Source of the DNA: Methanosphaera stadtmanae
Lineage (GTDB): Archaea > Methanobacteriota > Methanobacteria > Methanobacteriales > Methanobacteriaceae
Assembly (NCBI GenBank): GCA_015062805.1
Contig: SUTQ01000020.1
Span: 1 to 44,812 of the forward strand
DNA length: 44,812 nt
Direction: 5' to 3'
Positions 1,014 through 30,902 of the stretch are shown here, piece after piece. The notes beneath the pieces are model-generated. The model saw only the letters and a list, made by a program, of their open reading frames with translations. It was not told the origin of the DNA and searched no databases. The translations under genes and the position numbers were made by a program. Each line of letters begins with the position of its first letter. Positions within the stretch are counted from its first letter, which is position 1.

Positions 1014-2165
1014 ATGACAATAGAATTAGATGAAATCAAAAAACGAGAAAAAGGACTAAAAATTATCAACGAAAAAATTAAAAATGAAGGCATAGATTCA
1101 CTAATTGATTTAACTGGACTTGCCGGTGGTTTTGACGTGACACCAAAAGATATTTCCTTACTAGAAACATATGCCGGACCAGCAGTTTTTGATGAAAAAA
1201 TACAAAAAGTGGGTATAGAACATTTAGGTGGGGAAAAAGTATTACCATTAAACCGGACAACCAGTGGTATTGCAGCAATGATTATGACCTATGTGAAAGA
1301 AGGAGATGAAATAGCACATTATTTGCCAGAAGAACCGGGACATCCTTCAATAGCTAGAACTGCAAAACTTGTTGGAGCAGACTATGTGGAATACACTGAT
1401 ATAAACGATTTTAAAATCAATGATAATACTTCTTTAGTAGTTATTACAGGTACAACAATGGATCATGAAGTTATTAGCGAAAATGATTTTAAATATGTGA
1501 TTAATAAAGCAAAAGAACAAGATATTCTCGTTTTTGTTGATGATGCATCAGGTGCTAGATTACGTAGAGCAGTATATAATCAACCTACAGCTATTGATTT
1601 AGGAGCTGATTTAAGTGTTACCAGTACTGATAAACTTATGGAAGGACCACGTGGAGGACTTATGGCCGGTAGTGAAAAGTTAATTGATGAAATAAAATTA
1701 ACTGTAAATCAGTATGGGTTTGAAGCACAAGCACCTTTGGTTGTTGGAATGATTAAAGCATTAGAAAAATATTCACCTGAAAGAATTAAAGAAGCTTATG
1801 TTGAAAAAGATGAGTTATATCAGAAATTAATTGATAAGGGATTGAATCCATTAACTACTCCTACGGGTTTTATGTTTAAAGAAGATGAAATTAAAAATGT
1901 TGTAGTTGATAAAATTGGTGAAATGGATACTCCTTCAGATATAATTGCAACAGTTTATTCAATGTTGCTTCTTGAAAATTACAATATTGTAACTATCCCT
2001 GCAGTTGGAATGCCTGGTGCTAGTAAAACTATTCGTATCGATTGGTCTGCAAAAGATTCTGATAAAATAACTATGGACGAAATGGTTTGTGCAATTGTTG
2101 ATACTTTTAATAAAACAGCAGAAGTATGTAAGAATAATAAGGTAGAACAAGTATTATATGAATAA
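1014..2165 (+). CDS. PLP-dependent enzyme, MJ0158 family (SelA-like)
   Basis: A 383-residue fold-type I aminotransferase-like protein related to bacterial selenocysteine synthase (SelA). The signature around Lys207 (STDKLMEGPRGG) matches the SelA pattern DKLLGGPQ, so Lys207 is the likely Schiff-base lysine; Asp176/Asp177 in VFVDDASG are the likely PLP ring contacts. The N-terminal DNA-interacting domain of bacterial SelA is absent. It is known that the M. jannaschii homologue was not shown to make Sec-tRNA, so the substrate is open; I do not call it selA. Start: ATG with a weak AGG upstream. It converges on birA, with a shared hairpin between the two stop codons. Confidence 0.85.
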   Translation: MTIELDEIKKREKGLKIINEKIKNEGIDSLIDLTGLAGGFDVTPKDISLLETYAGPAVFDEKIQKVGIEHLGGEKVLPLNRTTSGIAAMIMTYVKEGDEIAHYLPEEPGHPSIARTAKLVGADYVEYTDINDFKINDNTSLVVITGTTMDHEVISENDFKYVINKAKEQDILVFVDDASGARLRRAVYNQPTAIDLGADLSVTSTDKLMEGPRGGLMAGSEKLIDEIKLTVNQYGFEAQAPLVVGMIKALEKYSPERIKEAYVEKDELYQKLIDKGLNPLTTPTGFMFKEDEIKNVVVDKIGEMDTPSDIIATVYSMLLLENYNIVTIPAVGMPGASKTIRIDWSAKDSDKITMDEMVCAIVDTFNKTAEVCKNNKVEQVLYE

Positions 2166-29231: not shown

Positions 29232-30197
29232 ATGACTGATTATGATTTTAAGCAAGAAGCTGATACTGATTATAACTATGGTTGCAGACCTTCTGAAAGA
29301 AGTATTGAAGAGCATATTAACAAGGGTATTTTCAATATAGATAAACCTTCCGGTCCAACTAGTCATGAAATTGATAATTGGGTTAAAAACATTATGCATG
29401 TTTCTAAAACCGGTCATGGAGGTACTCTCGATCCTAAAGTAACGGGTGTTCTGCCAGTTGCAATGAACACTGCTACTAAAAGTTTACAATTTTTACTTTT
29501 ATCACCAAAAGAATATGTATGTTTAATGAGATTACATAAACCAGTAGATGAAGAACGTATAATTGATGTTCTTGATGAATTTACGGGCAAGATTTATCAG
29601 ATACCACCAGTTAAATCAGCCGTCAAACGTGAATTACGTGTTCGAAATATTTATGAAATTAAACTTCTTGAAATACAGGATAAACAAGATGTTTTATTTA
29701 GGATAAAGTGTGAATCAGGTACTTATATTAGAAAATATTGTCATGACATTGGTGAAGTTCTGGGTTGTGGAGCACATATGGCTGAACTTAGGCGTACCAT
29801 GGCAGGATCTTTTAAAGAAGATGATACATTAACTACTTTACAAGATGTTACCGATGCATATTATTTCTATAAAGAAGATGGTGATGAAAAGTATTTAAGA
29901 AAACTGATTCAACCTATGGAATATACTACAAAATATGTAAAAAAGATCTATGTTAAAGATTCTGCTGTTGATGCAATTTGTCATGGAGCTAGTCTTGCCA
30001 GCAGTGGTATTGTAAAATTAAATAATCAAATTCATGAGAACAATACTGTTGCAATCATGACACTTAAAGATGAACTTTTGGCATTAGGTCAAAGTTTATA
30101 TAATGTGGATGACATAATAAATATGGATACTAAAATAGTAGTGAAAATACAAAAAGTATTTATATTACCAAATACATATCCTAAAATGTGGAAGTAA
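29232..30197 (+). CDS. truB: tRNA/rRNA pseudouridine synthase Cbf5 (archaeal TruB)
   Basis: A 321-residue Cbf5, catalytic subunit of H/ACA ribonucleoproteins and a possible tRNA U55 synthase. The catalytic Asp67 is in HGGTLDPKVTGVLPVA; NIDKPSGPTSHE precedes it and the substrate motif RIKCESGTYIRKYCHDIG follows. The C-terminal about 80 residues form the PUA domain (KYVKKIYVKDSAVDAICHGA). AGGAATTTGAT is a weak ribosome binding site. It lies between the histone gene and tRNA-Ser. Confidence 0.95.
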   Translation: MTDYDFKQEADTDYNYGCRPSERSIEEHINKGIFNIDKPSGPTSHEIDNWVKNIMHVSKTGHGGTLDPKVTGVLPVAMNTATKSLQFLLLSPKEYVCLMRLHKPVDEERIIDVLDEFTGKIYQIPPVKSAVKRELRVRNIYEIKLLEIQDKQDVLFRIKCESGTYIRKYCHDIGEVLGCGAHMAELRRTMAGSFKEDDTLTTLQDVTDAYYFYKEDGDEKYLRKLIQPMEYTTKYVKKIYVKDSAVDAICHGASLASSGIVKLNNQIHENNTVAIMTLKDELLALGQSLYNVDDIINMDTKIVVKIQKVFILPNTYPKMWK

Positions 30198-30539
30198 TAG
30201 CATAGGGAAAAAATAATAAAAAATATTTTTTCGGTATGATTATTCTTCAAATAGCATTTAACATTTTTTTATTAACTGTAGAACCTATAATATGCGTATT
30301 ATGGGCGAGGTCGATATTTAAAATATTATTAATTGTTTAATAATATGATTATTAAGTTTTACATAGATTAGCTTTGGCTATGTAATTTTAATGAATTTAC
30401 ATGGGAGTATACTCTCTGTATGGATATTAATCTTTTCTATAGATAATGAAAAAAAGACTATTTGAGAAGATTTATATTCGAGAATATAGATATTATTGTT
30501 TAAATTGTATATCTGAAATAATTATAAACAAACAGATAT
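30198..30539 (+). other. cbf5-tRNA-Ser gap with a series of hairpins (candidate ncRNA)
   Basis: This 342-bp gap has no convincing ORF. It holds a palindrome A6TAT6 (30218-30231), then stems at 30284-30305 (9 bp, loop TGCG), 30323-30346 (10 bp perfect, loop TTGT), 30359-30385 (8 bp perfect), 30398-30420 (9-10 bp with a bulge) and 30473-30488 (6-7 bp). A TATA-like TGTATAT at 30506-30512 probably drives the tRNA. The palindrome may end cbf5 transcription; the rest is unexplained. Confidence 0.4.
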
Positions 30540-30623
30540 GCCGAGATAGTCTAGCTTGGTAAGGCGCAAGACTGGAAATCTTGTGGGCAGATGCCCTCCT
30601 GGGTTCAAATCCCAGTCTCGGCG
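30540..30623 (+). tRNA. tRNA-Ser (anticodon GGA)
   Basis: An 84-base class II tRNA. The acceptor stem is GCCGAGA (30540-30546) with TCTCGGC (30616-30622), and G30623 is the discriminator, as in archaeal tRNA-Ser. The anticodon stem is CAAGA/TCTTG with a seven-base loop, and the anticodon GGA at 30574-30576 reads UCC and UCU. A long variable arm (TGGGCAGATGCCC region) and the T-arm CTGGG-TTCAAAT-CCCAG complete it. The 3' CCA is not encoded and there is no intron. Confidence 0.96.
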
Positions 30624-30902
30624 TTTATAATTATTTTAAAATAATATCTTGAAAATTTCATTAAAAAAAAATTTCTACTTTTTTAACGATTTATTTATTA
30701 TTTTTAATCACAATAAAACAGTACACTGTTTTGACTAGATTAATTCCGAATTGATTAATTTAGATAAATAACTGTTTTCTTGATATATTTACAATAATTA
30801 TAAAAATTCAAAGCTTATTTTTTCTTATAAAGAAATTACTTTTCACACACATTAGATTAATCTAGTTTTTCATTTATTATATTAATAAAAAGGAGAATTC
30901 AA
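30624..30902 (+). promoter_or_regulatory. Leader and promoter region of the rps13 operon
   Basis: Right after the tRNA is a perfect 16-bp palindrome (30630-30645), probably the tRNA terminator with nearby T-runs. Two hairpins follow: AAAACAG/CTGTTTT (30715-30732) and CTAGATTAAT/ATTAATTTAG (30735-30763). A TATA-like TTATAAA sits inside the dyad TTTCTTATAAAGAAA (30821-30835), followed about 20 bases later by the palindrome TAGATTAATCTA (30853-30864). AAAGGAGAA precedes rps13. Confidence 0.45.

Follow-up and report, generated by a model that had tools for sequence, protein, structure and literature searches.

The described RNAs lying closest to the element presented here belong to several quite different groups. 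Archaeal RNase P RNA is alike in being near 300 nt long and in adjoining a tRNA gene, and the archaeal 7S (SRP) RNA, which in the genome under study is paired with a tRNA-Ser gene, provides a local precedent for a large structured RNA upstream of tRNA-Ser. The archaeal H/ACA and C/D guide RNAs are brought to mind by a location beside cbf5 and a possible L7Ae site, and the kink-turn and k-junction motifs (Kt-7, the TPP riboswitch, DUF-3268) by a stable helix flanked on either side by GA and by a three-way junction; in k-junctions, as here with P5, a third helix is found on the non-bulged strand, and neither of the two k-junctions tested with L7Ae was folded by it (PMC10573300). Lastly, comparative genomics has yielded orphan candidate structured RNAs (e.g., PMC2864571), which, like the present one, were recognized by conservation and whose function is unknown.

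The locus in question is a gap at 30198–30539 (plus strand) of the window, i.e., the whole 44,812-nt stretch of DNA that was analyzed, from a Methanosphaera-type archaeon (Methanobacteriaceae). The gap is flanked by cbf5, whose 3′ end is at 30197, and by tRNA-Ser(GGA) (30539–30624, plus strand), downstream of which the rps13-rps4-rps11-rpoD genes are located. A sequence-only reading had seen there a series of hairpins without a convincing ORF and had proposed a candidate undescribed RNA. Comparison of the genus gaps agrees with this and makes for a stronger case than had been put forward: no conserved ORF, small ones included, is present, and the structure being conserved and covarying among related sequences leaves the reality of the RNA well supported. 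The ncRNA, on the plus strand, is roughly 300 nt long; its likely limits, about 30187 and the tRNA leader, are near those of the gap itself.

Comparison with Known RNA Classes and Distribution

That the gap encodes neither SRP RNA nor RNase P RNA, as had been supposed from the lack of their hallmarks, turned out to be correct: no covariance-model match to either (RF01857 and RF00373, respectively) was obtained in the gap, and the genome's own SRP and RNase P RNAs are located elsewhere, at G000:C11 (168 bits) and G000:C15 (153.5 bits). A search of the window and 12 relatives against Rfam 15 (4227 families) at the gathering score returned only tRNA above the cut-off, and the few remaining matches admitted at loose E-values (up to 10) were far below the cut-off, none of them being credible in the gap. 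No published description of the locus was found in a literature search that covered a minority of the subscription journals. With no Rfam match, SRP and RNase P RNA placed elsewhere, and compensatory changes among relatives (see below), the proposal of an undescribed RNA stands, and the element would represent a new RNA family in the sense of lacking an Rfam match, the novelty being that of the family and not of the mechanism. As compared to the orphan structured RNAs, it has no Rfam 15 match (the comparison being one with Rfam only) and is confined, among the genomes searched, to one archaeal genus.

The proximity of cbf5 had also led to a guide or processing RNA being considered conceivable, a suggestion that found no support. 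An ACA box 3′ of a pocketed hairpin is absent, the sole conserved ACA lying within the P7 stem (alignments A1 and A2, by eye), no conserved boxes C (RUGAUGA) and D (CUGA) were seen in alignment A1 (by eye), and rRNA, sought as the guide target, was not found in the genomes searched. Unlike the H/ACA and C/D guides, the ncRNA is several times longer, occurs in one copy, and has neither conserved guide boxes nor a recognized pocket. An identity as a guide of either class is, judging by these motif comparisons, not supported, and a putative promoter within the 3′ end of cbf5 accounts better for the position beside this gene.

The pattern TGTRGAACCT..GGGCGAGGTC occurs as a single copy in 15 of the 20 genus genomes, including 13/13 of those at least 90% complete, and the ncRNA is found between cbf5 and tRNA-Ser(GGA), once each, in 13/13 high-quality Methanosphaera genomes and in two partial ones (the genus sample is small, and several of its genomes are incomplete); synteny with tRNA-Ser is retained in every genus genome having a complete gap. 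A covariance model of the core matched only the same 15 genomes among the 151 genomes of the order searched, i.e., one of 19 genera, with the ncRNA not being found in the other 18, and laxer filters applied to 15 chosen genomes outside the genus gave nothing above chance level. The best outside match (G024, E = 0.48) overlaps a purF-like coding frame in antisense orientation and was taken as chance, as were the pattern-scan matches beyond Methanobacteriaceae, which are scattered among bacteria, the distribution to be expected of random matches to a short, gapped pattern; a pattern scan of IMG/VR gave no matches.

Other genera, too, have cbf5 adjacent to tRNA-Ser but lack this ncRNA. In one of these (G024, L017), the cbf5/tRNA-Ser gap holds a different large inverted repeat, GTGAGTGTCGG ... 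CCGACCCTCAA, for which no Rfam match at the cut-off was obtained. In other Methanosphaera genomes, the gap is 294–383 nt long, except for G002, in which it reaches 634 nt and the RNA region (L014) is much enlarged, with extra sequence in the head. In yet another relative (G031:C1:442238-443175), cbf5 is represented by two adjacent open frames, reflecting either a sequencing error or a real split.

Predicted Fold and Coevolution of Its Arms

Per-sequence minimum-energy (MFE) folds agree on one tree for most species, consisting of a stalk that pairs both RNA ends (P1, P1b, P2, and P3), a three-way junction (P3/P4/P5), and a head (P6, P7, and P8). The plus strand of the gap has an MFE of −79.4 kcal/mol vs. 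−54.0 ± 4.8 for dinucleotide shuffles (z = −5.3), and z ranges from −3.3 to −5.8 in 11 of the 12 genus gaps tested, with G016 (z = −1.2) being the exception. An RNA of the minus strand was rejected, given its weaker fold (z = −3.7) and the lack of coevolution in the half-swap test described below.

In the genome under study (G000), the 5′ strand of P1 (30211–30219) pairs with 30493–30501; this helix is part of the MFE fold in G000, G008, G007, G003, G017, G001, and G016, nearly so in G019, and is weaker or absent in G015, G004, and G011. Further up the stalk, P1b is formed by 30224–30239 and 30472–30488, P2 by 30243–30259 (starting with UUCUUCAAAUAG) and 30455–30468, and P3 by 30264–30283 (UUUUUUUAUUAACUGUAGAA, near-invariant in alignments A1 and A2) and 30435–30454. 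The P4 hairpin (30284–30305) comprises 9 bp and, in G000, a UGCG loop, and the 5′ strand of P5 (GAGGUC..., 30307–30320) pairs with 30421–30434 in the MFE folds of most species. The head is made up of the sequence-variable P6 hairpin (30323–30346), the P7 stem (30359–30385), whose conserved 11-nt loop AUUAGCUUUGG at 30367–30377 has one exact copy in the genome, and the variable P8 hairpin (30398–30420), also drawn from the per-sequence MFE folds. The same folds assign the 3′ strands of P5 and P3 to 30421–30454 and, together with the swap test, those of P2, P1b, and P1 to 30455–30501. P4, P6, P7, and P8 are present just as the sequence-only reading had described them; the hairpin it had placed at 30473–30488 can form, but this segment pairs better with 30224–30239 as the P1b 3′ strand, and the stalk (P1/P1b/P2/P3) and P5, which link both ends of the gap, had been missed.

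As the variable parts align poorly, coevolution was evaluated by a swap test, in which 5′ and 3′ arms taken from different species are joined and the pairing energies are compared. The native arms of both P4 and P6 beat the chimeras in all 20000 permutations (z = −5.1 for P6), and pairing in P4 is kept via double changes at three of its nine pairs. The native arms were also better in 20000/20000 permutations for P2 and in 99.8% of them (fraction 0.002) for P1b, where it should be kept in mind that the segment ends for P1b, P2, and P3 were taken from native folds, which somewhat favors native pairs. The two strands of inner P3 are complementary in each of the ten species tested, by a wide margin over shuffles, and give no coevolution signal because only the 3′ strand varies. 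When halves of the whole molecule were swapped, the native ones beat the chimeras weakly on the plus strand (0.03–0.055), and no signal was seen on the minus strand (0.80). Compensatory change among relatives, which had been suggested as a check on the candidate RNA, is thus found in P4, with the arms of P1b, P2, P4, and P6 coevolving.

Nearly invariant in alignments A1 and A2 are the P7 loop and the two strands flanking P4, UUUUAUUAACUGUAGAACCU and GGGCGAGGUC, with exceptions in G016, G002, G019, G004, and G001. These two strands (ACU-GUA-GA-ACC, then P4, then GGGC-GA-GGUC; 30275–30312, plus strand) are a candidate kink-turn or, if P5 is taken as the additional helix, a candidate k-junction: GA is found on both sides of P4 in 15/15 genomes matched, and the near-invariant genus sequence fits a three-nt bulge followed by tandem G·A and A·G pairs, a fit which competes with the inner P3 and P5 pairs. 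The same can be said of the kink-turn/kink-loop in an H/ACA upper stem, to which the sequence conforms in competition with P3 and P5. In contrast to k-junctions, the innermost P3 pairs of the ncRNA conflict with the bulge, and UCUAUAG in the P3 3′ strand keeps complementarity to CUGUAGA, which speaks for the kink-turn strands having other pairing partners. The 3b·3n pair of the candidate kink-turn would be A·C, which is not among the combinations folding in ions alone according to published rules (PMC4382518).

Putative Promoter and Linkage to tRNA-Ser

A putative promoter of the ncRNA lies within the 3′ end of cbf5 (30150–30164, plus strand) and is composed of a BRE-like CAAAAAGTA and the box A TTTATA (30159–30164). 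Codons 310–311 of cbf5 are TTT ATA in all of the Methanosphaera sequences aligned, preceded by the BRE-like stretch or close variants of it, and, across ten species, this TTT is the sole invariant Phe column of 5 and this ATA the sole invariant Ile column of 12, with ACA at codon 315 being the sole invariant Thr column of 12. Codons of conserved residues are invariant in 6/11 cases within the last 16 cbf5 codons vs. 16/152 elsewhere (p = 0.0009). At codon 311, ATG (Met) is found instead in other genera, in which T-rich sequence often comes directly after the cbf5 stop. A synonymous freeze of this kind, seen in this genus only, is what one would expect of a box A retained within a coding end. 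If the start site lies about 23 nt past box A, the distance measured in Thermococcus (PMC4247193), the ncRNA would start near 30187, close to the cbf5 stop codon, which would place ACATAT (30174–30179) at about −13 to −8; the conserved start of the RNA is 11–14 nt past the stop in most species. We infer that the ncRNA may well be transcribed independently of cbf5.

In this genome, the interval from the 3′ strand of P1 to the tRNA is free of T-runs of five or more. A stem formed by AAATAATTATAA (30516–30527) and TTATAATTATTT (30625–30636) encloses the tRNA in most genus members and has arms that covary (native better than chimera, fraction 0.0002), and a T-run past the tRNA (30679–30684) is a candidate terminator of a joint transcript, with an A-run and an ACTTTTT-type T-run being found past the tRNA in most genus members. 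The ncRNA and tRNA-Ser are therefore probably one transcript, for which the enclosing stem is possibly a processing signal. On the other side, the tRNA may have a promoter of its own, and the spacing between the RNA and the tRNA varies; the conserved TAATTATA upstream of the tRNA, considered as such a promoter, is too near the tRNA for a box A and was read as a stem arm. There are also T6–T7 runs within the first 80 nt of the ncRNA, which could terminate some transcripts. Such runs are not disqualifying, because runs of U7 and U6 are also found in this genome's SRP RNA and RNase P RNA, respectively, and taking them as disproof of transcription was rejected for this reason. The SRP RNA in question (L047, about 1350–1820) is followed by another tRNA-Ser on the same strand, and the RNase P RNA (L046, about 1500–1900, minus strand) adjoins tRNA-Met; stable RNAs adjoining tRNAs recur in this genome.

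Interpretation and Alternatives

The explanation we prefer, and regard as rather probable, is that of a genus-specific, undescribed ncRNA that is co-transcribed with tRNA-Ser and acts in trans as a protein-bound RNA. Transcription would be driven by the box A in the last cbf5 codons, start near the cbf5 stop codon, run through the ncRNA into tRNA-Ser(GGA), and end at the T-run past the tRNA, with 5′ maturation of the tRNA freeing the ncRNA. The latter would then fold into the long stalk, the near-invariant three-way junction, and the three-hairpin head exposing the conserved P7 loop, and would act in trans as a stable protein-bound scaffold, the junction and the P7 loop being its functional faces. 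The promoter, co-transcription, and processing are what we infer, whereas the trans-acting ribonucleoprotein and its partners are put forward as a hypothesis. It is the two invariant faces, variable helices, single copy, and variable distance to the tRNA that give the element its closest resemblance to a protein-bound RNA acting in trans; no specific binding partner is indicated by any of the analyses, and the poor folding of G016, the large insertion in G002, and the one-sided variation of P3 were counted against this explanation.

Its main rivals are both cis-acting. A tRNA-Ser leader controlling only the transcription or 5′ maturation of the tRNA, and degraded after cleavage, would sit well with the lack of a terminator before the tRNA in this genome, with the covarying stem wrapped around it, and with the synteny in all genus genomes having a complete gap; such a leader nonetheless seems unlikely to us, as the P1-to-tRNA spacing varies widely (and is much longer in G002), tRNA-Ser in the other genera of the order does without it, and the conserved P7 loop, far from the tRNA, would be unneeded. 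Less likely still is an element of the cbf5 mRNA 3′ UTR that controls stability or translation, perhaps via the binding of Cbf5 or L7Ae. The kink-turn-like motif could indeed bind L7Ae, and the RNA, with its strongly conserved start, begins at a nearly constant distance past the stop in most species, but a promoter accounts for this spacing equally, the synonymous freezing upstream resembles the box A of a separate transcript, and H/ACA features are lacking.

An atypical H/ACA or other L7Ae-bound guide RNA has to be considered quite improbable: against its location beside cbf5 and the fit of the invariant ACU-GUA-GA-ACC/GGGC-GA-GGU to kink-turn rules stand the absence of a correctly placed ACA box, of a recognized pseudouridylation pocket, and of an Rfam match, the P3 complementarity that speaks for the kink-turn strands lying in other pairs, and an A·C 3b·3n pair not predicted to fold in ions alone (PMC4382518). 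Hardly credible, and the least probable of all, is a neutral AT-rich spacer with chance hairpins, for even though AT-rich sequence folds easily and the stalk helix P3 is without coevolution, the invariant blocks, z-scores down to −5.8, coevolution of P2, P4, and P6, and genus-wide retention all speak against it, and significant arm coevolution, which would disprove such a spacer, was indeed observed. If confirmed, the ncRNA would be a novel RNA family of a methanogen genus that is host-associated and has cultivated species, and its invariant junction and loop are directly open to probing; it would also exemplify a promoter preserved within the conserved end of a protein-coding gene, as well as an ncRNA co-transcribed with a tRNA.

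The rps13 Leader and the P7 Loop

CAAAGCU (30809–30815), in the conserved rps13 leader, is the complement of AGCUUUG, a part of the P7 loop. The leader heptamer is present in the 13 genomes with a canonical or near-canonical P7 loop and was not found in the two with a divergent one; one pair is broken in G019 and its near-twin G009, G016 is divergent everywhere, and the leader of G002 may fall outside the stretch read. The chance for CAAAGCU in one leader is about 2% (from the heptamer frequency of the window), before counting other places examined. A genus-specific regulatory RNA gained in the Methanosphaera lineage, the P7 loop of which would pair with the rps13-rps4-rps11-rpoD leader and thereby link tRNA-Ser transcription to ribosomal protein synthesis, is a speculative and improbable reading of this complementarity. 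An antisense target for the full 11-nt P7 loop was sought as well and dismissed, the only exact match in the genome being the loop itself. The rps13 leader (30690–30902) also harbors, at 30808–30872, an element of the form CAAAGCTTATTTTTTC-(variable hairpin)-GAAATTACTT...TTAGATTAATCTAG, which is conserved in 13 genus genomes and is a candidate ribosomal-protein leader.
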